A stretch of DNA of 46,907 bases from an uncultured Anaerolineae bacterium (lineage in GTDB: Bacteria > Chloroflexota > Anaerolineae > Anaerolineales > Villigracilaceae). The position numbers and the translations under genes were made by a program. The notes under the pieces are model-generated. The model saw nothing but the letters and a program-made list of their open reading frames with translations. It had not been told where the DNA came from and did not search any database. Location: assembly GCA_903910795.1 (NCBI GenBank), contig CAIWAX010000257.1, positions 1 to 46,907 on the forward strand, given 5' to 3'. Shown here in pieces: positions 16,785 through 29,572 of this stretch. Position 1 is the first letter of the stretch. Every line of letters begins with the position of its first letter.

Positions 16785-17495
16785 TCAGGAGAAGTCTTTT
16801 TTTGGATCTCTGGTTGTCTTGTCGGCTGGTATGGGCGCGAGCAGTTCGGGACGGTCATTTGCGGGGCTGTTGACCAGGGTGGAAACCGGGTGGGCGGTCA
16901 TGTGTTCCGCGGGGTAAGGTACCAGGAGGTGTTGTAAGGTCTCGGGTTTTTGTGGCGAAGGGTCGAGCCATTCCGCGTAAGCTTCGGGTTGCAGTATCAC
17001 TGGCATACGGGTATGTAAGCTGGACATGAGCGCGTTGGGTTCGGTTGTGATAATGGCGCAGGATTTAATTTGTGAGCCGTCGGGGGAGAGCCACTCATCC
17101 CATAGGCCCGCGAAGGCAAACGGCTGGCTGGAGGCCAGCCGAATGTGGTATGGGATTTTTAACTTTGAACCAGACTGGGCCTTCCATTCGTAGAAGCCAT
17201 CCGAAAAAATGAGGCAGCGTTTATATTTATAGGCTCCGCGGAAGGATGATTTTTCGGCCAGGGTCTCGGCGCGAGCATTGATAAGATGAGATCCAATGGA
17301 TGGGTCTTTGGCCCAAACCGGGATCAATCCCCATACATAATAATCTGCAGTTCGCTGGCTGTTGTTGGGAAGCACGAGTACTGGCTGACTGGGGGCGATA
17401 TTGTAGCGAGGTTGAATGCCCGCGGGCATGGAAAAATCAGGAAAGGCTGCCTGCAAATCGGTAGGGTTTACACTGAGAGTAAAACGTCCGCACAT
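16785..17495 (-). CDS. SRAP family abasic-site processing protein (YedK/HMCES-like)
   Basis: Proteins of this family protect abasic sites in single-stranded DNA by forming a thiazolidine crosslink through Cys2. The expected catalytic residues are visible: C2 directly after Met in MCGRFT, N32 in RYNIAPSQ, N73 in LINARAE, E103 in FYEW and H161 in HTRMPVIL. The length of 236 residues is normal for the family. AGGAGAA precedes ATG 17495. No LexA-type GAAC-N4-GTTC box was seen upstream, so SOS control is not supported here. It leads a short operon with the MFS exporter. Confidence 0.93.
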   Translation of the reverse strand: MCGRFTLSVNPTDLQAAFPDFSMPAGIQPRYNIAPSQPVLVLPNNSQRTADYYVWGLIPVWAKDPSIGSHLINARAETLAEKSSFRGAYKYKRCLIFSDGFYEWKAQSGSKLKIPYHIRLASSQPFAFAGLWDEWLSPDGSQIKSCAIITTEPNALMSSLHTRMPVILQPEAYAEWLDPSPQKPETLQHLLVPYPAEHMTAHPVSTLVNSPANDRPELLAPIPADKTTRDPKKDFS

Positions 17496-17586
17496 TGAGG
17501 TTCTCCTTTTGCCTGCAAGCGTATTTCACTATTTATTTGAACGATAACCAATTACAGAGAGATTTTCTTAATCTTGTGGGCGGCGT

Positions 17587-18948
17587 TCACTTTTTAGATT
17601 TGCGAGGGGTGAGCGTGGGCGCAAAGTCAAATGGGGTTGGCGTAAGGGTGACTGTCCGGGGTGGGATCGAGAAGTAAAAATTCATAGTATCGGCGATTTG
17701 CTGGCTGGAACTCTCCGGGTCGATCACTTCGTAAAAAGTCACGCCCTGTTCCAGTGGCACAGGCTGGCCATTTTCATCTTCAAAGCGGATGGGCTGGTCG
17801 ACCAGATCGCGGATCCACTTTGCTTTTAACATGCGTCCATCACGAAATATATAGGCATCGCCACTGCCTTTCAAGCTGATGTCGATCAGTTCATCCCAGC
17901 GGTCAAATTCATTGTGAAAGATGTGCGGCACAACCAGCTCAATTATATTGCTTGAGGTGACCTGCTGGCCGGAGAGGTTATCGATATGCGGGGCGTATTG
18001 TTCGCCCACGGTGAAATCGGTGGCATCCGCCGCATCCGAAAAGCGTTTGTATATATGCATGCTTGGATCATATTCCCAATAATTGTAGCTGTAAATGGAA
18101 TAATGGGTGTAAATGCGGTTGATGAGCGGCATCGTCATTGGGTAAAGGAAGGGCCCAAACAAGGTGGCACGCAAATCCTGGCGGTCATTGCCTCCTAATT
18201 TTTCGCCGACCCCATCTGTGTTGACAAACAAGCGGGTTTCGGCGTCTTTGCTGCCACTATCCCAGAGCGGTGGGAAAAAAAATTCGTTTTCTTCAAACAA
18301 AAATGGGCCCAGGTCGCTGTTGTGGAGATAGTCTTCCACACGCTTGTCAGCGTGACCAAAGACAAGGTATGAACTGTACATACGCATGACATATTCATCG
18401 AAGTAACGACCGGATCGTACCGGGCCGGCATGTTCGGCATCCTGTGAATAGAAGACGGCAATAAAGCGGGTGAGATGGTCATCGCCAATGAAATATTCAT
18501 AGACCACATCTGCGCGGCTCAGTCCTCTCTCGACAGGGCGAACCATGCCGCGTGGGAATGCGCTGATTTTGACTGCCACAGGGCGGCGATTTAAGATATC
18601 TGGATTGGCAACTTTGAGGCCCGTCAATGGGTCAACATCGGAGGGGAGTGTCATATAATAGTTGAGACCCGGTATCAGAACGCCAAATGTAGGTGTGACT
18701 GTAACCGGCATAAGTGTCGCCGCGCGAGCGGTTGCGGACGGGAGGTAGATAACCGCCGGGCCGGGTGTCAGGGTGATGGTTGGGGGTGAAACTGCCAGAC
18801 TGGGTGATATTTGAAGATTATCTTTCCCTTGTTGGAAAAGGGAAGCGCTGCCCCGGCTGGCAAAAACGGTTGCGCCAAGTACAGCGAACAACAAAAGGAT
18901 TGTTCCCCACAGGATAAGAACCAGCTTCTTGAGATTGGAAACCTTCAT
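17587..18948 (-). CDS. DUF3048 (YerB-like) surface protein
   Basis: The 453-residue protein has an N-terminal membrane anchor (about 7-27), a Thr/Pro-rich spacer (about 45-95) and the DUF3048 domain: DPLTGLKV, RRPVAVKISAFP, RPVERGLSRADVVYEYF, HAGPVRSGRYFDEY. A C-terminal Thr/Pro tail follows. Bacillus YerB is a putative lipoprotein of unknown role; no lipobox Cys is seen here, so it is probably anchored by the signal segment. ATG 18948 (MKVSNLKKLVLIL) is chosen because a TATAAT box ends 7 nt upstream; the 43 codons before it are not a plausible N-terminus. Confidence 0.82.
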   Translation of the reverse strand: MKVSNLKKLVLILWGTILLLFAVLGATVFASRGSASLFQQGKDNLQISPSLAVSPPTITLTPGPAVIYLPSATARAATLMPVTVTPTFGVLIPGLNYYMTLPSDVDPLTGLKVANPDILNRRPVAVKISAFPRGMVRPVERGLSRADVVYEYFIGDDHLTRFIAVFYSQDAEHAGPVRSGRYFDEYVMRMYSSYLVFGHADKRVEDYLHNSDLGPFLFEENEFFFPPLWDSGSKDAETRLFVNTDGVGEKLGGNDRQDLRATLFGPFLYPMTMPLINRIYTHYSIYSYNYWEYDPSMHIYKRFSDAADATDFTVGEQYAPHIDNLSGQQVTSSNIIELVVPHIFHNEFDRWDELIDISLKGSGDAYIFRDGRMLKAKWIRDLVDQPIRFEDENGQPVPLEQGVTFYEVIDPESSSQQIADTMNFYFSIPPRTVTLTPTPFDFAPTLTPRKSKK

Positions 18949-18955
18949 CTTTGGG

Positions 18956-18961
18956 ATTATA
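18956..18961 (-). promoter_or_regulatory. -10 box TATAAT for DUF3048, leaderless-type
   Basis: On the minus strand TATAAT is followed by CCCAAAG and ATG (18948). The ATG has no ribosome site. Confidence 0.5.
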
Positions 18962-19098
18962 CCGCTTTCCCCAACAGAGTTTCTCCATTGTGAAGTATCT
19001 CGACCGGCATTTTTTTTATTGAGTGATATACCAGTTTGATGCCAGGTAGGATGAATCTTGGCTGATGACAAGGCCAAACCTGATAAAATAAATCAGCC

Positions 19099-20667
19099 AT
19101 GTATGTGATCATCACTTTTATTTTACTCTTCCTGGCGGCCGCGATTATTTTAGGATTGCGCCTGTCGCGTATTTCGGTTTCCTACTCCTGGCTGGCAGCT
19201 GCTCTCGGGGCGCTTTTTTGTTGGATCAGCATCCTGATCTGGCAGCTTGATCTTCCGCGTCATTTTTCTCCCAGTATCTGGGCGCCGGCCAGCCTTTTCA
19301 ATTCGTCACCAGACCTGCTGGCGGAACCTTATGCCTGGTTATACGCGGTCTGCCTGGCCGCTCTGGCGGCGGCCGTGATTTTTACTTCGCCTGCGCGTAC
19401 ATCCACCACTGTCAACCCGGCCGCGTGGGCTGGAACCCTGGCGCTGACTGGCCTGGGATTGCTGGCCGTGCTGGCTGATAATCCACTCACTCTGGTGCTG
19501 GGCTGGACTGCCATCGACTTGACCGAATTTATGAACACATTGCGTGCCTCCGATTCGCCATCCCTAAGCGAGAGGGCGGTGATTTCCTTTGCGATTCGGG
19601 CCGCCGGTACGGCTTTTGCACTGTATGCCAGTGTTCTCAGCGCTGCTAACGGGCAGACCTTCTTATTTGAGAAGGCCACCGCTCAAACAGGTGTTTTCCT
19701 GCTCCTGGCAGTTGGCCTGCGGCTAGGTGTCTTGCCGCTGCATCTTACTTATCGCAGCGAACCTGTGCTGCGCCGTGGTTTTGGCACAGTGCTGCGCCTG
19801 CTCACGGCCGCTACCAGCCTGGTTTTGCTGGCGCGTTTGCCGGTTTCATCTATTAACCCGGCTTACATTCCTTATCTGCTCATTTTTGTCGGGTTGGCGG
19901 CGTTGTACGGTGGTTGGCAGTGGCTATTTGCATCCGATGAATTGAACGGACGACCATATTGGATCATTGGGATGAGTGCGTTATCACTCGCCGCCAATCT
20001 GCGCGGCAGTTCAAGTGGCAGCGCGGCCTGGGGAGCAGCCCTGGTTTTATTCGGAGGCATTTCTTTTCTATATTCGGCCCGCTATATTTGGTTCACCCGG
20101 GTATTAACGGGGCTTGGTATCCTTCTTCTGGCTTTGCCATTCAGTCTGACCGCCACCGGTTGGAGCGGGGATTTTATGTGGCCCTATTTATTCTGGCCAG
20201 TTTTCCTGGCGGCGCATTTCATGCTGGCTGCCGGGTACGTGCGGCATCTGTGGCAGCCAGGCGAATCCCAATATTTGGAATTACCCACCTGGGCCCAGGG
20301 TGTCTATCCGATTGGGCTGGCCATCCTGGTGATCACTGCCATCGCTGCCAGTGTTTGGGGTTGGGCTGGTGCATTGAAATTGGGCACCTGGATGATCAGC
20401 GCAATTCTTTCAGTGCTCTGCTTGCTGGCCTGGCTGGCTGTCTGGCGCTTCCGCCAATTTGCACCGGCCGAATCACCCAGGCTGCCTTCTGTACAAAGAT
20501 CGCGCCTTGTTGATCTTCTTGAGTTTCTGGCCCGTTTTTTGTGGGGTGTTTACCGCCTATCGGGTAATCTTTTTAACCTGGGGAACAGTTTGCTGGAAGG
20601 TGACGGCGGGCTGCTCTGGACGCTTTTGTTGCTGGTCTTGTTTATTATCATTTATCGGGGCCGCTGA
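19099..20667 (+). CDS. NuoL/M/N- and HyfD-like proton-conducting membrane protein, divergent
   Basis: The 522-residue protein has about fourteen membrane spans and the plan of antiporter-like subunits of complex I and hydrogenase-4. The key charges are altered. The site of the conserved TM7 Lys reads AVGLRLGVLPLH (Arg). The usual TM5 Glu position reads LGWTAIDLTEF, with no Glu at the expected place. Proton pumping is therefore uncertain. It is the first of three overlapping genes, with the 3' end overlapping the next by 1 nt. TAAAAT lies 9 nt before the ATG. There is no nearby NADH-dehydrogenase or hydrogenase gene. Confidence 0.75.
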   Translation: MYVIITFILLFLAAAIILGLRLSRISVSYSWLAAALGALFCWISILIWQLDLPRHFSPSIWAPASLFNSSPDLLAEPYAWLYAVCLAALAAAVIFTSPARTSTTVNPAAWAGTLALTGLGLLAVLADNPLTLVLGWTAIDLTEFMNTLRASDSPSLSERAVISFAIRAAGTAFALYASVLSAANGQTFLFEKATAQTGVFLLLAVGLRLGVLPLHLTYRSEPVLRRGFGTVLRLLTAATSLVLLARLPVSSINPAYIPYLLIFVGLAALYGGWQWLFASDELNGRPYWIIGMSALSLAANLRGSSSGSAAWGAALVLFGGISFLYSARYIWFTRVLTGLGILLLALPFSLTATGWSGDFMWPYLFWPVFLAAHFMLAAGYVRHLWQPGESQYLELPTWAQGVYPIGLAILVITAIAASVWGWAGALKLGTWMISAILSVLCLLAWLAVWRFRQFAPAESPRLPSVQRSRLVDLLEFLARFLWGVYRLSGNLFNLGNSLLEGDGGLLWTLLLLVLFIIIYRGR

Positions 20668-21251
20668 TGCCAGACTTTGTTTTGTGGATCGCCGCCGTTA
20701 CTCTCGCGTTGACAACGATCAGCCTTCTGATCAGCCGTAGTTGGCGCTGGAGTATTGGGCTGCTGGCGCTTCAGTACTTTGCCACCTTCTGGCTGTTATT
20801 TGCACATTGGCCTCTGAATATGTCTGCCAGTGTTCTCGTTACTGGCTGGATGGCTGCCGCCGCGCTGGGTATGACACGCGTCAACATCAAGGAAGACCCT
20901 GACGCAGATACGTCCTGGCCTCAGGGCGGCCTCTTTCGTATTTTTGCCGCTGCCCTGGTTCTGATGGCGATTTCGGCGGCGACCGGCAGTCTAAGTGCCT
21001 GGCTGCCCAATATCCAACTGCCTATGGCATGGGGGTCGCTGATTCTAATCGGGCTGGGGCTTCTGCAGCTTGGTATGACTTTGCAACCGCTGCGGGTTAT
21101 TCTTGGGTTACTTACCATCCTGATGGGGTTTGAGGTTCTATACACCGTGATCGAAAATTCTATTCTGGTGGCAGGCTTCCTTTCGGTTATCACAATGGGG
21201 TTGGCGCTGGCGGGTTGTTATCTGCTTGTATTAGGAGAACAATCCACATGA
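20667..21251 (+). CDS. HyfE/NuoK-like membrane subunit
   Basis: The 194-residue protein has about six membrane spans. The segment LTILMGFEVLYTVIENSILVAGFLS resembles the NuoK/HyfE region with the conserved TM2 Glu; the second NuoK Glu seems absent, the aligned place reading GFLSVITMGLALAG. It is larger than NuoK (about 100 residues) and closer to HyfE (about 216), which has extra N-terminal spans. It overlaps the upstream antiporter-like gene by 1 nt and the next gene by 4 nt (ATGA), a sign of coordinated expression. The partner proteins of a working complex are not in the window. Confidence 0.65.
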   Translation: MPDFVLWIAAVTLALTTISLLISRSWRWSIGLLALQYFATFWLLFAHWPLNMSASVLVTGWMAAAALGMTRVNIKEDPDADTSWPQGGLFRIFAAALVLMAISAATGSLSAWLPNIQLPMAWGSLILIGLGLLQLGMTLQPLRVILGLLTILMGFEVLYTVIENSILVAGFLSVITMGLALAGCYLLVLGEQST

Positions 21252-22648
21252 GCGCTCCAATTGTCTGGATTGCTGTTCCGCTGGTCCTTGCAGTGATTTT
21301 GCTATGGCTGCCTGATGAGCGCTGGATTACTTTTCTGGGTACGGTGATCTCGTTGTCTCTGGCGGGGCTGGCTTATTGGCTGCCGCCTGACAGTGCCCAA
21401 CGTCTGTTTGGTCTTTCTTTGCGAATTGATTCAAATTTTGCCTTTTCGGGAAGAAATATCAGCCTGACTGCCGCAGATCAGGTCATTCTCATTATTGTTT
21501 ACGGCATCGGCGCGTTCTGGTTTTTTGGCACGCTTGCGACCGGCAGCGCCAAACGCATCATTCCACCGGGGCTGGCGATTATTGCATTGCTGGTGGCATC
21601 CCTGGCTGTACAGCCCTTCTTGTATGCGGCCTTGTTGATTGAAATAGCTGTGTTACTCTCCATTCCCATGCTGGCAGAAGCCGGTCAAAAAACTGGACGA
21701 GGACTGTTGCGTTTCCTGATCTACCAATCATTTGCCATGCCGTTCATCCTATTTGCAGGGTTTCTGCTTTCTGGCATTGAGGCCGGACCGGCGGATATTG
21801 CGCTGATCTCTCAGGCGGCCATCCTGCTGGGTCTGGGTTTCGCATTTTTACTTTCAACCTTTCCCCTATTTACCTGGGTGCCGATGCTTGCCAGTGAAAC
21901 TCTTCCCTATGCGGTTGGTTTCATCATGATCATCTTTCCAACTTTCAGCCTGGTTTTTGGGCTTAATTTTATTGACCGCTATTCATGGCTGCGCGATTCT
22001 GCCGATCTGGCGAATATATTGCGGCTGATTGGCATCCTGACACTGGTCAGCGCGGGAATATGGGCTGCATTCCAGCGTCAGTTGGGACGGATTTTTGCTT
22101 ATACGGCTGTTGCAGAAACAAGCCTTTCCCTGTTGGCGATGAGTCTGCCGGATCGCCAGGCGGGTTTGCAAATCGCCTTTTATTTGCTTGTACCGCGGGC
22201 GCTGGCATACGGTGTCTGGACAGTCTCAATTACCATCTTGAAAAGGCAGGCGCCTGATTTGAAATTTACCAGTTTGCAGGGTCTGGCCCGAAAATTCCCG
22301 TTGGCCAGCGCGGGATTGGTGCTTTCAAACCTGGCCTTGTCAGGAATTCCTTTACTTGCCAGCTTTCCTGTGCGGCAGGCGCTGTGGGAAAAATTGGCGG
22401 CACAATCGCCATCAACAGCGTTATGGTTCGGGTTAGCCACCCTGGGTTTGTGGGCAGCCTCTCTGCGCACGCTGGCTATCCTGACTATGGCGCCCGAACA
22501 TACCCTCTGGGAAGTGAATGAAAACTGGAGCCAGCGCCTGTTAATTGGGACTGGTCTGGTTGGGTTGCTTTTCCTGGGGCTGTATCCTCAATGGGCCCAG
22601 CCTTTTCTGGCAAACCTACCGCTCATGTTTACGCATCTGGGTAAATAA
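21248..22648 (+). CDS. NuoN/M- and HyfF-like proton-conducting membrane protein, divergent
   Basis: The 466-residue protein has about fourteen membrane spans. TM5 retains a Glu (LYAALLIEIAVLLSIPML), but the TM7 Lys is missing: the aligned segment reads FLLSTFPLFTWVPMLASETLP, hydrophobic where complex I subunits have Lys. The later NuoN-like segment LSGIPLLASFPVRQALW keeps the GIP and Phe turns. ATG 21248 is preferred over 21215, because AGGAGAACAATCC precedes it and the ATGA overlap with the previous gene is typical. A terminator follows at 22658. Confidence 0.75.
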   Translation: MSAPIVWIAVPLVLAVILLWLPDERWITFLGTVISLSLAGLAYWLPPDSAQRLFGLSLRIDSNFAFSGRNISLTAADQVILIIVYGIGAFWFFGTLATGSAKRIIPPGLAIIALLVASLAVQPFLYAALLIEIAVLLSIPMLAEAGQKTGRGLLRFLIYQSFAMPFILFAGFLLSGIEAGPADIALISQAAILLGLGFAFLLSTFPLFTWVPMLASETLPYAVGFIMIIFPTFSLVFGLNFIDRYSWLRDSADLANILRLIGILTLVSAGIWAAFQRQLGRIFAYTAVAETSLSLLAMSLPDRQAGLQIAFYLLVPRALAYGVWTVSITILKRQAPDLKFTSLQGLARKFPLASAGLVLSNLALSGIPLLASFPVRQALWEKLAAQSPSTALWFGLATLGLWAASLRTLAILTMAPEHTLWEVNENWSQRLLIGTGLVGLLFLGLYPQWAQPFLANLPLMFTHLGK

Positions 22649-22657
22649 AGTCTTCTC

Positions 22658-22677
22658 ACGGAAACCTTCCGTTTTTT
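22658..22677 (+). terminator. Intrinsic terminator of the antiporter-like operon
   Basis: ACGGAA (22658-22663), loop ACC, TTCCGT (22667-22672), then a T-run. The stem is 6 bp. Confidence 0.7.
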
Positions 22678-22684
22678 CCCGTGC

Positions 22685-22690
22685 TATAAT
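22685..22690 (+). promoter_or_regulatory. -10 box TATAAT for the coiled-coil gene
   Basis: TATAAT lies 38 nt before ATG 22729, giving a short leader of about 30 nt that contains GGAG. It follows the terminator directly, so the gene is independently transcribed. Confidence 0.45.
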
Positions 22691-22728
22691 TTGTGCGCAG
22701 ATCCGGCTGCGTGGAGAATGAAGATATT

Positions 22729-23916
22729 ATGGAACTTGAAGACCTCGCAAAAAAAATAGATTGGCTCGAAAGAGAGCATCGTAAAGACCGTGGAACCATT
22801 GCTGATCTTCAGGAAAAGTTGGCCGGGTATGAGGGAAATAACAGCCTGCTACAAAACCAGCTCAAAGAATTAAGCTCAGACCTTACGCGTTATAAATCCA
22901 CCGGGGCCCGGTTGGATCAATTTGATTCGATGGTGACCCAATATCGCGCTGAAATCACCAAATCCATCGATGAGATGGAAAAAAGACGAGTCAAACATGA
23001 ACGTGATATTGAAGAACGCCGCCGCATGGAAGTTGATGTGCTAAATAAATCCCTGATCGAAGTGCGCGCTGGGGTGGATGCTCTTCAGGATTTGCGGCGA
23101 GGTTTGCAGACCCGTGTTGAAGAAGATTTGCGGCTGGCACGTGTATTTGGCGATCTTGAAAAGAAACTGGTTGAGTTTACTCACGCAGATGAAGAAATTC
23201 GGCGCAGCGTGCGGAGCGTGGATGAAGCCCGCAGAAACGATATCAAACGGATCGCTGATGTGCAGGGCGAAATTGCCGCCATTCGCAAACGGGCGGAAGA
23301 TGCTCGCGAGAAATCGGACCTAAATTTTGATAGCCTGCACCAGCTTGACAATCGTATTAATGAACTGCTCGCCTCTGAAAGTGACCGGCGCCAGGTTCAA
23401 CTGGCTTTCATTGAACAGCAGAGCATGTCGACTGTGGAACGTGATCGCGGCTGGAAGGAAATGCAAACCCGTTTCGAGGGCTTTACCCGCCAGAATGTCA
23501 ATATAGACCTGCAACTTGTGGCCTTGGAAGACACACAGCGCTCTGTTAAACGTTCGCAGGAAGCTTTCGATGAAATGAACACCCGCATAGAACGGCGCAT
23601 CAATGAAATCACCGAAATTCAACGATTGACCGAGGAACGCTTCCGGCAGGAATGGGTGACGCTTAAGGCTGATGATCAAAAGCGTTGGACAAACTTTACA
23701 TTGACGCAGGATGACTGGGTGAAGGAACTGCGGGCCGAGTTGGAAAAACTAAACCAGCGTATCGCAGCGCTCGATGATGTTTACCAATCGCTGCAGGATC
23801 TGGTTGAACAAACCAGCGAGACAACCGAAACCCACCTCCAGGAACTGATGAACTGGGCCCATGAATTTCTTACCAACTACGAGCGCATCACAGGGCGCTC
23901 ACGACCAACCAGATAA
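22729..23916 (+). CDS. Long coiled-coil protein, unrecognised
   Basis: The 395-residue protein is almost entirely charged and helical, with heptad patterning from about residue 5 to 385 (for example [15 protein letters not shown], and later repeats such as [20 protein letters not shown]). There is no membrane span, signal peptide or enzyme motif. Such proteins act as scaffolds, tethers or SMC-like chromosome or division factors, but nothing specific can be claimed. ATG 22729 is chosen, because the 12 codons after the GTG at 22693 are unlike the rest. It sits alone between the antiporter-like operon and selB, with a 40-nt palindrome overlapping its stop. Confidence 0.7.
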
Positions 23917-23955
23917 ACTTCAGGGGCGACCAACAGGTTGGTCGCCCCTGAAGTT
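23916..23955 (+). terminator. Perfect 40-nt palindrome after the coiled-coil gene
   Basis: AACTTCAGGGGCGACCAAC (23916-23934) and its exact complement (23937-23955) are separated by AG. The 19-bp stem is very stable. Downstream is TGTACTCCTTTT, a weak T-tract. It may be a terminator or a dispersed palindromic repeat. Confidence 0.55.
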
Positions 23956-23993
23956 GTACTCCTTTTACTCGCCTATCCATCACAAGGAGCATA

Positions 23994-25877
23994 ATGCGCG
24001 TTATCGGTACCGCCGGCCATGTTGACCACGGCAAATCCACCCTCATCGCCGCCCTGACGGGCATCCATCCTGATCGTCTTAAGGAAGAGCAGGAGCGCGA
24101 GATGACGATTGAGCTGGGTTTTGGCTGGATGCTGTTGCCGGATGGACAGGAAATTGGGATTGTCGATGTTCCCGGTCACCGCGATTTTATCGAAAACATG
24201 CTGGCGGGCGTTGGCGGCATCGATGCCGCTCTGTTGGTCATCGCCGCGGATGAAGGTGTGATGCCCCAGACCAGGGAACATCTGGCTATCCTCGATTTGC
24301 TGCAAATCCAAAAAGGGCTGGTTGTGATCACCAAGGTGGATATGGTGGATGATAATGACTGGCTGGATCTGATAGAGACTGACATCCGCGCCACCCTGGC
24401 GGGTACAGTCATGGAAAACACCAGGTATGTGCGTGTTTCTGCCAGAAGCGGGCTGGGTCTGGATGAACTAAAAAACGCCATGGCTGAGCTACTGCGCGAT
24501 ACGCCCCCACGCCTGGACCTTGGACGACCGCGTCTGCCCATAGACCGGGTTTTCTCGATCGCCGGGTTTGGCACTGTGGTGACCGGAACATTGAGTGATG
24601 GGCATTTAGCCATAGGCGATGAAGTCGAAATCCTGCCATCCGGCGGTAAAGGCCGGGTGCGTGGGTTGCAAACCCATAAAAAGAAGGAAAACCTGGCTCT
24701 GCCTGGTAGTCGCACAGCCGTCAACGTTACCAACCTGGCGGTGGATGAAATTGGCCGTGGGGAGGTGCTGGTTACGCCCGGTCATTACCAGACTACCCGT
24801 CGCTTTGACGCGCGTCTGCGTCTGCTTAAGGATATTTCGGCGACGCTCAAACACGGCACTGAGTTAAAAGTTTTTGTTGGTACATCTGAAACCGTTGCAA
24901 ACCTGCGCATTCTCGGCGCGGAGAGCCTGAACCCCGGGGACGAGGGCTGGATCCAGTTGGAACTGCGTGACCCGCTTGTGCTGGTACGCGGCGACAGATT
25001 TATCTTGAGGCGGCCCTCGCCGGGAGAAACCCTGGGTGGGGGGCAGGTTGTAGATCCTAACCCCAAACAAAGGCACAAACGCTTTGATTTGAGCGTTCTG
25101 ATAGGGTTGGAATCTCTTTCCAAAGGCAGCCCGGCTGAAATTCTTTTCCAGGCCGCCCTGGCTATGGGAGCTGCTCCGGCCCGTGAAATTGTTGTCAAAG
25201 CCCGCCTTGAAGCAGACCCAGCCCAAGAAGCTCTTGATGAGTGCGTCAAATCCGGGATGCTGATACCGTTGGAAGGATTAACCCCGGCCTTCAATTCTGA
25301 TGAATTGATGATCCCTGCCCCGCAGTGGATGACATTAAAAGATAATATCCTGGAGGTGCTGGCAGCTTTCCACAAGACTTTCCCACTCAAACGCGGTATG
25401 CCGCGCGAGGAATTAAAAAGCCGTCTGAAATTGTCAGCGCGCCTGTTCAATGCGGCTCTCAAGCATGTCGATATTCAGGATGGCGGTGCCTGGCTGGCAC
25501 AAACCGGGCATGCTATCCGCTTTTCCCAAGCACAACAAACAAAAGCGACAAATCTCTTGAAAAAATTTTCCGCTGCGCCATATGCTCCTCCTTCTGTCAA
25601 GGAATGCCAGACTGAAGTTGGCGAGGATGTGTTTGCTGCCCTGCTGGAGTTGGGCGACCTGACCCTGGTTTCGCCGGAGGTGGTTTTCAGAAGCAGCGAT
25701 TGCCAGCAAATGACAGCCCGGGTGCGGTCGAGCATTGCTCAAAATGGGCAAGTCACAGCGGCTGAGGTGCGCGATCTGTTTGGGACCAGTCGAAAATTTG
25801 CGCTGGCCCTGCTTGAATATCTGGATGCGATTGGGGTTACAATTCGAGACGGCGATTTCAGGCGTTTGCGCCGCTGA
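23994..25877 (+). CDS. selB: Selenocysteine-specific elongation factor SelB
   Basis: SelB delivers selenocysteyl-tRNA to UGA codons with a SECIS element. The 627-residue protein has the GTPase domain with G1 GHVDHGKST (8-16), G3 DVPGH and G4 TKVD; EF-Tu-like domains follow ([41 protein letters not shown]), then a C-terminal winged-helix region (about 400-627) expected to bind SECIS RNA. AAGGAG precedes ATG 23994 by 4 nt. No selA, selD, tRNA-Sec or selenoprotein gene was recognised in the window, so Sec use by this organism is inferred from this gene alone. Confidence 0.93.
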
Positions 25878-25909
25878 GAACAACGCTGTGATCACCCGGA
25901 GAAATTTTT

Positions 25910-26380
25910 ATGGCGAATGATCCTACCTTTTTGAGCAGCGTGATATTGATCATGGTGGCTTATGGCGGCGCATTTTTGGCGGCGCTCTGGCTGGCCCTGG
26001 TGATCTGGACGTGGCGTGATATCCGCAATCGCAGCCGCGATCTGATTGTCCAGCTTCTGGCAGCGCTGGTTGTGGCAGTTCTCAATCTGCCAGGGGTGTT
26101 GGTGTATATGATCCTGCGGCCTGCGCTGACCATTGAAGAAGAATATCAGCGCACCCTGGAAGAAGAAGCCCTGCTGGTTTCTGTTGAGAATCAATCACTC
26201 TGTCCGGGCTGTGAGCGGCATGTTGATAAGGATTGGCTGGTCTGCCCAACTTGCCACACAAAACTCAAAATAAATTGCCAGCATTGCCAAAAATTGATGG
26301 AGCTTTCCTGGGATATTTGTCCATATTGCGATACGCCCGCCCCCGGCCTGAAGCTCCAGGTTGATCCGGTCGAAAACTAA
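25910..26380 (+). CDS. Membrane protein with C-terminal zinc ribbons
   Basis: The 156-residue protein has two N-terminal membrane spans (about 10-32 and 43-67) and a cytoplasmic tail with zinc-binding CxxC pairs: CPGC, CPTC, CQHC, CPYC (about 98-144), as in double zinc-ribbon (DZANK-type) proteins. The span-plus-ribbon layout suggests a membrane-tethered adaptor, but function is unknown. The start has GGAGAAA upstream. It lies 32 nt after selB and 20 nt before the GT-C-like gene. Confidence 0.72.
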   Translation: MANDPTFLSSVILIMVAYGGAFLAALWLALVIWTWRDIRNRSRDLIVQLLAALVVAVLNLPGVLVYMILRPALTIEEEYQRTLEEEALLVSVENQSLCPGCERHVDKDWLVCPTCHTKLKINCQHCQKLMELSWDICPYCDTPAPGLKLQVDPVEN

Positions 26381-26400
26381 ATCCAATCCAACATTAATTC

Positions 26401-28410
26401 ATGACGTTTATAGACTCACTTTCCTCGCGCGCCCGGAGAATTTACCAGAGCAAATGGGGTTTCCCTGCCTTCCTGCTTCTGGCCGGGTTTCTGACCATGC
26501 TCTATCCGCTTACCCAATTAGGCTATTATTGGGATGATTGGGAGGTGGTTTACCTTACCCGTCTTGCCAACCCGGCCATCCTGGAAGGTTACTTCTTTTT
26601 TGACCGGCCGCTGGCCTGGCCTTACCCAATTTTTGCCAGCCTGCTGGGGGCGCAGCCTTTTGCCTGGCATTTGCTGACTCTGCTGCTGCGCTGGGCTGGA
26701 ACCCTCTGTTTTTATCAGGCCTTGCTGGTGTTGTGGCCTGGCCGGCGCTCTGCCCTGCAGTGGGTTAGCCTCTTGGTACTGGTCGCCCCGGCTTTTTTGC
26801 AGCAATCCATTTCCACCGCTTTCAGCCGGCACTTCACCGCGTATTTGTTGTGCGGATTGTCTTTTTATTTTACAGCCCTGGCCGTGCGTACCCGGCACAA
26901 AAAACTGTTTTGGATGCTGGCCTGGCTGACAGGCGCTGCCCAAATTTTTACGATTGAATATTTTGCCGGTCTGGAATTGGCCCGCCCGGTTTTTATCTGG
27001 ATGCTGCTGGAACCGGCGCCTTTCTCCCAAAAACTCAAAAGAACTGCACAGTTCTGGCTGCCTTTCCTGGCTGTATTCCTGGTTTTTGGCTGGTGGCGCG
27101 TGGCTTATTACCCCAGCCTGTTAAGTACCCAGCAGTTTGCCAGCCGGGCGCGCTTTGTAACTGGCCTGATGAAAAACCCGCTGCAGACCATCATGGGCTT
27201 GCTGGTTTCCATCTGGCTGGATTCCTGGTACCTGGTTTCGCAATCCTGGCTGTCCCTGATCACTGATTCGGAGAAAATCGACTTGCTGGCATCTTCAGTC
27301 TGGTTTGCCCTCGGGCTGGGTGCTGTGCTAGGGCTGTTGGCGGTCTTCTTTAATCGAGCAGACGACGACCAACCGGATGGTTTTGGAAAACAGGCTTTCT
27401 GGCTGGGCCTGGCCGGTTTACTGGCCGGCGGCGTACCGGTCTGGATGATTGGGCGCCGGGCCTCCGCTGCAGGTAATTTCGATAGCCGTTTTGCGATTGG
27501 CATGTTGTTGGGGGCTGTTCTTTTGATGGTCAGCCTGGTTTGGACGCTGGTGCTGCCGCGCTGGCGCGGCTGGGTGTTGGCCTTTATGCTGGCTCTGGGG
27601 ATTTTTAGCCAGGTGTATGTTGTCAATACCTACCGCCGCGAGTGGTCAAACGAGCTTGATTATTTCTGGCAGCTATCCTGGCGCGTTCCGAACCTCAAAC
27701 CTGATACCGCGGTGCTGGGTGGTTATGTGCCATCCCCTATGTTGCCTGATTACGATGCCAGTTTTTCCCTGGCGCTGCTGTATTCCGGGCAAAACACAGG
27801 TACCCGCCTGCCTTACTGGTATTTCACCTGGGATGGAATGGGAGATGTCAAGCTCAAAGACGGCGCCCAGGCTGATGTAAACTTTCGCAACCTGAAATAT
27901 GCGGGCTTTATTGGTAAATCGGTGATGATCTTTCACCAGCCGCCGCCCGGCTGCCTGCGTGTGGCGGACAGCTTTTACAGCGGGGACCCGATCCTGGGCG
28001 CGCAAAACAATTTTCTGCCCTATTCCAACTTGAATCAGATTGAGACCGAAAGCAGCCATGTTCCCGATCCGGCTATTTTTGGAAACGAGCCGCCGCACGG
28101 CTGGTGCTATTATTACCAGAAGGCTGACCTATCCCGCCAGCTTGGGCAGTGGGGTAAGGTTCTCCAACTTTATAAACAGGCAGCCGCTCTTGGGTATTCA
28201 CCCAGTCAGGGTGGTGAATACCTGCCGCTTCTTGAAGCATACGCGCAAAACGGCCAGTGGCAGCCTGCTTACCAGCTTACCAAAAAGATCGCGGGTACGA
28301 CCCAGGAATTGAAACCCAATTTATGCGCTAAATGGCAGGGCTATACCGCCCTGCCTGGCCTGGATGCCGGGTTGGCAGCCAGCCTGCGCAGTGAATTAGC
28401 CTGCCCCTGA
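26401..28410 (+). CDS. Multi-spanning GT-C-like membrane protein
   Basis: The 669-residue protein has about twelve membrane spans and a soluble C-terminal third. Near the N-terminus, YYWDDWEVVY (D45, D46) in the first extracytoplasmic loop resembles the catalytic acidic motif of GT-C glycosyltransferases of the PMT/ArnT type, which use lipid-linked sugars; this is inference. The C-terminal region (about 560-640) has helical repeats, with YYYQKADLSRQLGQWGKVLQLYKQAAALG reminiscent of a TPR. No sugar-nucleotide gene is adjacent. The start ATG 26401 has a poor ribosome site. Confidence 0.55.
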   Translation: MTFIDSLSSRARRIYQSKWGFPAFLLLAGFLTMLYPLTQLGYYWDDWEVVYLTRLANPAILEGYFFFDRPLAWPYPIFASLLGAQPFAWHLLTLLLRWAGTLCFYQALLVLWPGRRSALQWVSLLVLVAPAFLQQSISTAFSRHFTAYLLCGLSFYFTALAVRTRHKKLFWMLAWLTGAAQIFTIEYFAGLELARPVFIWMLLEPAPFSQKLKRTAQFWLPFLAVFLVFGWWRVAYYPSLLSTQQFASRARFVTGLMKNPLQTIMGLLVSIWLDSWYLVSQSWLSLITDSEKIDLLASSVWFALGLGAVLGLLAVFFNRADDDQPDGFGKQAFWLGLAGLLAGGVPVWMIGRRASAAGNFDSRFAIGMLLGAVLLMVSLVWTLVLPRWRGWVLAFMLALGIFSQVYVVNTYRREWSNELDYFWQLSWRVPNLKPDTAVLGGYVPSPMLPDYDASFSLALLYSGQNTGTRLPYWYFTWDGMGDVKLKDGAQADVNFRNLKYAGFIGKSVMIFHQPPPGCLRVADSFYSGDPILGAQNNFLPYSNLNQIETESSHVPDPAIFGNEPPHGWCYYYQKADLSRQLGQWGKVLQLYKQAAALGYSPSQGGEYLPLLEAYAQNGQWQPAYQLTKKIAGTTQELKPNLCAKWQGYTALPGLDAGLAASLRSELACP

Positions 28411-28462
28411 TCCAGGGAATATCAACATCATTGAATTCAAAAATAAAAGAGAGAGAGAAAAA

Positions 28463-29572
28463 ATGAGACTTTCAAGAATTACCCTCTACCCGCTCAGCAT
28501 GCCGTTAATTTCGCATTTCGAAACATCTTTTGGCCGGATTTATAACCGTGAATGTGTACTGGTGAAAATTGAATCTGAGGGCCTGGTGGGTTGGGGTGAA
28601 TGCGCCGCCGACCGCGACCCCGGCTATTCTTATGAAACCACCGGGACAGCCATGCATATCCTGAAGGATTTTGCCCTGCCACTGCTGGTGGGTCAGGATG
28701 TGATCGACGCCGCCGATTTCCAGCGCCGGATTGGTTCAATCCGCGGGCATCACCTGGCCAAGGCCGGGGTGGAGATGGCGCTCTGGGATCTGCTCGGCAA
28801 GCGCGATGGAAAATCGCTCAAGCAAATGCTGGGCGGGGTCAGGGACCAGGTGGAAGTGGGTGTGTCGGTTGGCTTGCAAGACACAACCGCTGATTTGGTG
28901 CGTGCTGTGGATGGTTATGTTGCCAAGGGTTACCGGCGCATCAAGATCAAGATCAAGCCGGGGCGCGATGTCAGCGAAGCCCAGGCTGTGCGCGCAGCCA
29001 ACCCGGATATCCGGCTGCAGGTGGATGCCAATTCGGCTTACAGCCTTGAGACTGCTCATGTGCTCAGACCACTGGATGACCTGAACCTGTTGTTGATTGA
29101 GCAGCCACTGTTTGAAGATGATATTTGGGATCACCGTTTATTCCAGAAAGAACTGCGCACGCCCATCTGCCTGGATGAAAGCATCATTTCTGCGCGTCAC
29201 GCGCGTTATGCCATCGAAATGGAAGCCTGCCGGATCATCAATATCAAGCCCGGTCGTGTGGGCGGGTTGAGCCAGGCTGTCGAAATCCACAATCTCTGCC
29301 AGCCGGCCGGGCTGCCGGTGTGGTGCGGCGGTATGCTGGAAACCGGCATTGGCCGCGCTTCCAACTTGGCGATTTCTTCTCTGCCGGGCTTTACCCTGCC
29401 CGGGGATGTCTCGGCTTCTGACCGCTATTACACTCGCGATGTAACGCAGGAGCGCTTCACGCTCAATCCCGGCAGCACCATTGACGTGCCAACCGGCGCT
29501 GGTCTGGGTGTGACAGTCGATGAGCAGGCTGTGAAGGATTTCGCCCTGGGCGAAGTGATTGTTCAGGCATAA
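28463..29572 (+). CDS. menC: Enolase-superfamily enzyme, o-succinylbenzoate synthase / N-acylamino acid racemase type
   Basis: The 369-residue protein is of the muconate-lactonizing subgroup. The active-site residues are in place: K161, K163 and K165 (KIKIKPG), D188 (QVDAN), E213 (IEQPL), D238 (LDES) and K262 (NIKPGRVGG). The opening MPLISHFETSFG matches menaquinone-pathway MenC and N-acylamino acid racemases; the two activities overlap in this family. No other men genes are nearby, so racemase use is equally possible, and the symbol is tentative. The ribosome site is the purine-rich GAGAGAGAG before ATG. The next gene, a cyclase, starts 49 nt later and may be cotranscribed. Confidence 0.8.
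   Translation: MRLSRITLYPLSMPLISHFETSFGRIYNRECVLVKIESEGLVGWGECAADRDPGYSYETTGTAMHILKDFALPLLVGQDVIDAADFQRRIGSIRGHHLAKAGVEMALWDLLGKRDGKSLKQMLGGVRDQVEVGVSVGLQDTTADLVRAVDGYVAKGYRRIKIKIKPGRDVSEAQAVRAANPDIRLQVDANSAYSLETAHVLRPLDDLNLLLIEQPLFEDDIWDHRLFQKELRTPICLDESIISARHARYAIEMEACRIINIKPGRVGGLSQAVEIHNLCQPAGLPVWCGGMLETGIGRASNLAISSLPGFTLPGDVSASDRYYTRDVTQERFTLNPGSTIDVPTGAGLGVTVDEQAVKDFALGEVIVQA

Follow-up and report, generated by a model that had tools for sequence, protein, structure and literature searches.

The mechanism by which redox chemistry in complex I drives ion movement at a distance remains under debate, and individual antiporter modules are being dissected for their minimal working parts (PMC11496545). 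Isolated antiporter modules conduct protons in liposomes, which sets a precedent for redox-free work, and in simulations the path became partly sealed when the middle Lys was replaced (PMC11496545). In Escherichia coli NuoN, the K217R variant retains 57.7% of NADH oxidase activity and 88.4% of pumping, E133A is near wild type, and K247 and K395 are essential (PMC13073174). DabB2, a NuoL-like protein whose lateral helix is short, has a partner that is not a redox protein; it keeps the proton-path residues of NuoL but is without the NuoL ion pairs (PMC13144422). Here we describe three overlapping genes, p1, p2 and p3, at positions 19099-22648 of a 46,907-nucleotide (nt) stretch of DNA from an uncultured Anaerolineae bacterium (CAIWAX010000257.1; hereafter, the window). 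The window is the whole of contig C257 in a 5.0-Mb genome of 496 contigs that is 92% complete. We establish the gene set and its conservation, the predicted fold of p1, the homology of p3, the replacement of key residues, and the absence of redox subunits from the neighborhoods searched.

Proteins encoded by the p1-p2-p3 trio

The three open reading frames (ORFs) lie on one strand, exactly where an earlier note on this DNA had placed them:

19099..20667, + strand: p1, 522-amino-acid (aa) antiporter-like protein with a predicted NuoL/ND5-type fold and a short lateral helix (profile match and predicted fold)
20503..20598, + strand: p1 lateral helix, residues 469-500, a short amphipathic helix of the predicted model before the last transmembrane (TM) helix (502-520)
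20667..21251, + strand: p2, 194-aa protein predicted to have seven TM helices, with a weak NuoJ-like fold hint in residues 1-114
21248..22648, + strand: p3, 466-aa PF00361 antiporter-like subunit (47.6 bits against a cut-off of 21.5)

p1 and p2 overlap by 1 nt (p1 TGA at 20665-20667, p2 ATG at 20667-20669), and p2 and p3 by 4 nt (p2 TGA at 21249-21251, p3 ATG at 21248-21250). We place the start of p3 at ATG 21248, and not at TTG 21215, because the family consensus opens with MSAP. A p3 relative is encoded at 172 loci, of which the 80 best matches make up the set of related loci used here and the 92 weaker ones lie outside it. Differences between the window and the related locus L080 at codon positions 1/2/3 amount to 31/18/59% in p1, 31/15/63% in p2, and 26/13/54% in p3, a pattern that indicates purifying selection on real coding sequences. 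Neither p1 nor p2 has a Pfam or NCBIfam family at E ≤ 0.1 (p1 does not reach the curated cut-off of PF00361), which could be taken to mean that p1-p3 are decaying or chance ORFs. That reading, to which we give virtually no credence, is already refuted by the codon pattern, the 80 related loci, the invariant residues, and the confident models of p1 and p2.

In its AlphaFold2 model (predicted local distance difference test [pLDDT] 89.7, predicted template modeling score 0.89), p1 has a NuoL/ND5-type fold, and its kinship to the antiporter subunits is a remote one, seen by profile-profile match and fold only. Against a profile of 15 antiporter sequences (NuoL/M/N, HyfB/D/F, and the genome's own antiporter subunits), p1 matched with probabilities of 96.2 to 97.3% (E = 2.5e-11 to 2.7e-9); the profile match had E = 4e-10, whereas the reversed control gave E = 0.54 and a probability of 0.1%. 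The match was weaker with the narrower alignment A4 (48 to 95%), and single known subunits gave no signal in hhalign, the 15-row profile alone producing a match. The model also resembles chain L of E. coli complex I (Foldseek, E = 1.1e-11). Its 50 VIA rows (Z = 30.0 to 33.5) comprise 36 NuoL/ND5 chains, with 467 to 507 residues aligned, and 14 NuoM/ND4- or MrpD-type chains, with 389 to 407; chains L and J of the structure matches we take to be NuoL and NuoJ from the chain labels. Among the p1 helices, only that of residues 469-500 is strongly amphipathic (hydrophobic moment 0.47, versus 0.05 to 0.26 in the 15 others scored), and an amphipathic helix followed by the last TM helix is the arrangement of NuoL (PMC3274701), although the helix of p1 is short, like that of DabB2 (PMC13144422). 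Judged from its modeled length, the lateral helix could span one neighbor subunit. The antiporter-like character given to p1 in the earlier note thus stands, and the comparison with HyfD gives way to a NuoL-like model with a lateral helix.

p3 passes the curated cut-off of PF00361 (Proton_antipo_M) and falls below those of the NuoN/M/L, Hyf, and Mrp-D models of NCBIfam, among which NuoN is the best named model (59 bits against its cut-off of 332.6). With hhalign probabilities of 99.3 to 99.6% against the 15-sequence profile and of 98.8% against the genome's own NuoN, p3 is, by these matches, a divergent PF00361 protein homologous to the complex I antiporter subunits. In a tree built with 8 of the 30 p1 rows and 9 of the 31 p3 rows, p1 and p3 each occupy a branch of their own (support 100/100), separate from HyfB, HyfD, and HyfF, with stems as long as 2.0 and 2.5 changes per column; these long branches meet, and the placement of p1 and p3 is unsure. 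With p2 matching neither NuoK nor HyfE, the specific HyfD-HyfE-HyfF identity proposed for the trio finds no support.

The p2 model consists of seven helices (pLDDT 88.3). The NuoK/HyfE-like identity suggested for it finds no support in its sequence, as Pfam, NCBIfam, and hhalign reveal no sequence kinship and neither NuoK nor HyfE is matched by sequence or profile. The hhalign targets were E. coli NuoK, NuoJ, and HyfE, the NuoK proteins of contigs C348 and C493 and a 104-aa protein of contig C445 from the same genome, a 33-row NuoK profile, and a 32-row NuoJ profile; probabilities ranged from 0.1 to 3.8% versus 0.8 to 0.9% for the reversed control, and only NuoJ (3.8%) exceeded the control. 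Foldseek returned no match at E ≤ 0.001. Residues 1-114 superimpose on NuoJ chains with Z = 7.3 (81 residues, 2.2 Å) and Z = 7.5 (110 residues, 3.3 Å), and on residues 625-737 of an MrpA chain, its NuoJ-like part, with Z = 7.0. The best fold match is an unrelated V-ATPase chain (Z = 8.0), and helical bundles reach such Z values by chance; HyfE has no row in the p2 VIA list, which is uninformative.

Replacement of key residues in p1 and p3

Positions were mapped through the 15-sequence profile, in which E144, K234, and K265 of NuoM correspond to T137, R208, and A238 of p1 and to E132, L201, and T232 of p3. Columns were counted over 116 (p1), 121 (p2), and 73 (p3) distinct rows. The underlying alignments A1-A3 hold 30, 30, and 31 rows (those below 75% of the length in the window were dropped), A4 covers 74 of 77 p1 loci and A5 78 of 80 p2 loci (short or X-bearing rows dropped), and A6 covers 38 of 80 p3 loci, thinned by choice. 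More distant loci, 19 of the class and one (L203) of the same order, contributed 20 of 20 loci for p1, 13 for p2, and 15 for p3. As a control, the 15 known subunits have Glu in the TM5 column in 15/15 cases and Lys in the TM7 column in 14/15, the exception being a NuoM of this genome. The residues on which the argument turns are as follows:

19516..19518, + strand: p1 D140, Asp in TM5, three residues past the lost Glu position (T137); 116/116 rows
19720..19722, + strand: p1 R208, Arg at the TM7 Lys position (NuoM K234); 116/116 rows
21132..21155, + strand: p2 E156 to E163, two Glu in or at the end of TM6; E156 in 110/121 and E163 in 119/121 rows
21641..21643, + strand: p3 E132, TM5 Glu position kept; 59/73 rows
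21848..21850, + strand: p3 L201, TM7 Lys position; Leu in 60/73 rows
22196..22198, + strand: p3 R317, TM11 His position (NuoM H348); Arg in 69/73 rows
22373..22375, + strand: p3 R376, TM12 Glu/Lys position (NuoM E407, NuoN K395); Arg in 60/73 rows

The TM5 Glu and TM7 Lys that mark the antiporter-like subunits of complex I are both missing from p1, and p3 mostly has the Glu only. The earlier note had seen the TM7 Lys as Arg in p1 and as hydrophobic in p3, and the family bears this out; no Lys occurs at the p3 position in the 71 of 73 rows read. Its impression that p1 lost the TM5 Glu also holds (position 137 is mostly Ala across the family), with the nuance that an invariant Asp follows three residues on. 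Elsewhere in p1, the TM8 Lys position falls on A237/A238, mostly Ala, with R233 one turn away being Arg in 93/116 rows; the TM11 His position is Gly, the TM12 Lys/Glu position is an alignment gap, and P347 and W507 are invariant (116/116). In p3, the TM8 position carries Thr or other uncharged residues in the rows read, the TM10 His position has become Glu or Asp in 65/73 rows (E290/D), and P206 and P368 are found in 73/73. The key residues are not merely shifted by alignment, and D140 and R233 lie about one turn from the lost positions. Across the aligned rows the replacements are family traits and not peculiarities of the window.

Because D140 and R208 are invariant even in rows that share as little as 20% identity with the window, we suggest that they form a kept putative TM5-TM7 ion pair. 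By analogy, the TM5 and TM7 changes of p1 would not alone stop pumping, since NuoN retains function with K217R or E133A (PMC13073174). The description of the TM7 Lys as essential was therefore overstated. Nor is its loss unique to the trio, because one of the two NuoM of contig C348 has lost it too: this protein (L072:12480-13964, - strand) has Leu at the TM7 Lys position. In its DIKR motif, the same NuoM has Tyr at a position that is Arg or Lys in the 14 other compared subunits.

The trio is also poor in Lys (0.55, 0.69, and 0.84% in p1, p2, and p3, versus 2.8% in the nine antiporter subunits encoded elsewhere in this genome) and rich in Arg (5.0, 3.4, and 4.4% versus 2.4%). The sole trio column with Lys in at least 70% of rows is position 56 of p2 (106/121). 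In the window this position (20832-20834) is Val, a lineage-specific loss.

Distribution and genomic neighborhood

All 80 related loci come from records titled Chloroflexi, Anaerolineae, or narrower groups. A p1 profile matched 36/150 genomes of the class and 20/201 genomes across the phylum, of which 18 belong to the class and two are weak; we judged these two (G231 and G275; E = 2e-4 and 4e-4, over stretches of 84 and 58 residues) to be chance matches. By these searches, the trio is found only in the class Anaerolineae. As a check for mobile spread, 72,556 plasmid records were searched for p1, and none matched.

The order p1-p2-p3 on one strand is kept in 77/77 loci that have all three genes; in the remaining 3/80, p2 and p3 are present and the stretch begins at a contig end. 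Of the more distant loci, 15/20 have the three genes side by side, four have an unlinked p1, and one ends at the edge of its contig. Where p1 is unlinked (seven genomes), p2 and p3 are together elsewhere in 7/7: in the one-contig genome G070, p1 (2.47 Mb) lies 1.8 Mb away from p2-p3 (0.64 Mb), and in G105, G137, G160, G180, G198, and G157, p1 is on a different contig from p2-p3. Six of these seven genomes belong to one genus, which makes for about two independent events. A direct look at four unlinked cases (L197-L200) found neither p2 nor p3 beside p1, and in four stretches around unlinked p2-p3 there was no complex I relative except p3. Co-occurrence without linkage speaks for p1, p2, and p3 as one functional unit.

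No NuoH/HyfC, iron-sulfur, or catalytic subunit accompanies the trio in the neighborhoods searched, in agreement with the orphan status given to it before. Ten proteins of the window (16785-29572) were scanned, and none except p3 is a complex I or hydrogenase subunit; HyfC and [NiFe] catalytic subunits were not found among them, and contig C257 has no match to PF00146, PF00420, or PF00499. The flanks of the 80 loci (up to 6 kb) were searched with single sequences (E ≤ 1e-8), the queries being genes of the three redox contigs of this genome, including NuoH- and 49-kDa-type proteins; they hold no Nuo/Hyf-type relative but p3, no cluster of NuoH with NuoB/C/D/I, and no NuoH- or 49-kDa-type protein. 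By neighborhood, then, the trio is an orphan. Beside one distant trio, in a genome with 9% contamination, NuoB-, NuoC-D-, and NuoI-like genes run divergently (L185:10563-13763), and no NuoH-like match was found in that stretch.

Besides p3, the genome encodes nine PF00361 proteins, which are spread over three contigs. On C493 there are NuoH, L, M, and N with NuoJ and NuoK matches, and on C348 NuoH, J, K, L, M, M, and N; C445 has NuoH, an MbhD/NuoJ-type protein, a NuoK-type match, and two antiporter subunits, together with catalytic-type genes (fused 30/49-kDa-type, 20-kDa-type, and 4Fe-4S subunits). By gene content, the C445 genes (L074:7257-15403) encode a group-4/Mbh-like membrane complex. 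A redox operon lacking just the subunits of the trio, which would have given it a home, was sought among these three; each owns antiporter subunits, and judged by their genes none misses what the trio could supply.

As the earlier note had proposed, we also compared gene neighbors across Anaerolineae; the order of the trio is kept, and two genes follow it in near loci:

22729..23916, + strand: coiled-coil protein, after the trio in most near relatives and a possible partner; 77/80 loci
23994..25877, + strand: SelB, selenocysteine elongation factor, a conserved neighbor (TIGR00475, 351 bits); 73/80 loci

A zinc-ribbon protein gene comes next on the same strand, and a DUF3048 protein gene lies divergently upstream. 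The coiled-coil gene mostly starts within about 200 nt after p3, and two of its three exceptions are cut by a contig end; at the 20 distant loci it occurs in 3 stretches, directly after p3 in 1 (L203). The seven loci without SelB include five with less than 1.2 kb of contig left and two with a full flank. We considered a selenocysteine link of the trio and rejected it, SelB being far more widespread than p1 (above cut-off in 124/150 genomes of the class versus 36/150) and nearly absent at the distant loci (1/20 stretches). We read the adjacency of SelB as conserved gene order and not as function, and SelB is probably no part of the complex. The same gene run includes a 669-aa ORF (window 26401-28410) with no Pfam or NCBIfam match at E ≤ 0.1.

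Interpretation and comparison with known systems

We propose, tentatively and with a little less than even confidence, that p1-p3 form a stand-alone, redox-free complex that derives from the Mrp/complex I antiporter core and acts as a gradient- or potential-coupled transporter or gate. The three proteins would assemble as one membrane complex without a redox module of its own. The short lateral helix and last TM helix of the NuoL/MrpA-like p1 could clamp it along p3, the one other antiporter subunit, and p2 may occupy the end, in the place of NuoJ/NuoK or MrpA-C/MrpC. In p1, the classical wire of TM5 Glu, TM7 Lys, TM8 Lys/His, TM11 His, and TM12 Lys/Glu appears unrecognizable, in p3 it is altered, and its place may be taken by a replacement set of Arg, Asp, and Glu: D140, R208, and often R233 in p1; E132, E290/D, R317, and R376 in p3; and E156 and E163 in p2. 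Because the TM8 position is uncharged, the TM11 position of p1 is Gly, and p3 has Arg at TM11 and TM12, a normal proton wire is unlikely in the trio, though possible. Complex-I-like proton pumping would thus not be expected, and an existing ion gradient would drive the transporter or gate. The coiled-coil protein encoded next door is perhaps coupled to the trio. That the trio moves or senses ions is our inference. An extended form of this proposal, a nearly Lys-free, free-standing membrane arm whose Arg/Asp network carries or senses a non-proton cargo (a cation, an anion, or the membrane potential) and relays it to a non-redox partner, we consider unlikely. Of the two options in the earlier note, a stand-alone transporter or a redox-uncoupled module, the former is somewhat favored, and the orphan part stands.

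Several observations weigh against the proposal of a stand-alone transporter. Transport and assembly of the trio are both inferred, and the placement of p2 follows from weak fold hints, with the V-ATPase chain scoring above NuoJ (Z = 8.0 versus 7.3 to 7.5). The loss of the wire in p1 is partly a statement about the alignment, given the gap at TM12 and R233 near TM8, and the rows behind the Lys and Arg contents span many genomes, so that base composition is only partly controlled. The NuoB-NuoCD-NuoI-like block adjoins 1/20 distant loci, and NuoH is encoded elsewhere in 61/61 near-relative genomes, making a redox module in trans conceivable.

These last two points also favor another explanation, in which the trio proteins are supernumerary membrane subunits, joining in trans, as an extra antiporter pair, a complex I or group-4-type complex whose genes lie elsewhere; three operons for complexes of this sort, one with two NuoM, are present in this genome. 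Against it, the three operons carry their own antiporter subunits, the search of the 80 flanks turned up no redox gene, and p1 occurs in 50/61 near relatives and in about a quarter of the class as counted above. Complex I does not need p1, because NuoH is present in all 61 genomes and p1 in fewer, and we regard addition in trans as quite unlikely. A scaffold or sensor without transport, in which the antiporter fold would serve as a platform with structural roles for the conserved Arg and Asp, and the job would be done with the coiled-coil protein, draws support from the lack of a complete recognizable proton wire in p1 or p3 and from the coiled-coil gene, present at nearly all near loci and mostly close behind p3. 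The same gene is seldom found at the distant loci, however, and p3 keeps its TM5 Glu in most rows and P206 and P368 in all, with several charges retained across very divergent rows; we deem the scaffold somewhat unlikely. A reduced Mrp-type Na+/H+ antiporter, with p1 as the N-terminal part of MrpA, p2 as the C-terminal part of MrpA plus MrpC, and p3 as MrpD, would fit the architecture of the Mrp core (PMC7419157), the alignment of p2 with MrpA, and the absence of MrpG (PF03334; 0 matches) from this genome at its completeness of 92%. We nevertheless hold it to be highly improbable, since MrpB/E/F/G were not seen among the window proteins scanned, p1 has neither the TM5 Glu nor the TM7 Lys and p3 the Glu only, p2 has no NuoJ/NuoK profile match, and MrpG is present in 16/61 relatives, among them the p1 carriers G002, G009, and G018.

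Returning to the stand-alone transporter or gate, the trio may be a membrane machine of a kind not yet studied. The folds of its parts are known (or none is assignable); their combination, with hardly any Lys, was not met in the literature searched. These searches brought up no paper on the trio, which does not prove that none exists. In many Anaerolineae, evolution has retained a two-antiporter module that has no redox engine next to it, with the presumed proton-carrying and gating residues changed and an Asp and an Arg fixed in all 116 p1 sequences. The trio could reveal what this fold is capable of with hardly any Lys and without electrons.

Among known systems, hydrogenase-4 has the same large-small-large order in HyfD-HyfE-HyfF (HyfE, 216 aa; p2, 194 aa). 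The trio differs from it in that HyfC/G/H/I were not found, the C terminus of p1 is of the NuoL type, p1 and p3 branch separately from HyfD and HyfF in a tree whose placement of them is unsure, and p2 does not match HyfE. With complex I, p1 shares the fold and lateral helix of NuoL/ND5, and p3 is homologous, being nearest to NuoN; however, no redox subunits were found beside the trio, Lys is scarce, and ionizable residues are replaced at TM7, TM11, and TM12 in p3 and at TM5, TM7, TM8, and TM11 in p1. DabB of the DAB/MpsAB inorganic-carbon pumps is redox-free and NuoL-like with a short lateral helix, and p1 is alike in its helix (469-500) and following TM segment (502-520). Unlike DabB2, p1 is without the path residues, although it keeps a TM5 acid and a TM7 base, and the trio has two antiporter-type subunits; no DabA (PF10070) is among the 10 window proteins scanned. 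From Mrp the trio differs in that MrpB/E/F/G were not seen beside it, the key residues are not kept, and p2 has no sequence match, but the Mrp core (MrpA, MrpC, and MrpD) is likewise redox-free and likewise combines two antiporter-type subunits, one with a lateral helix, and a small multi-TM protein.

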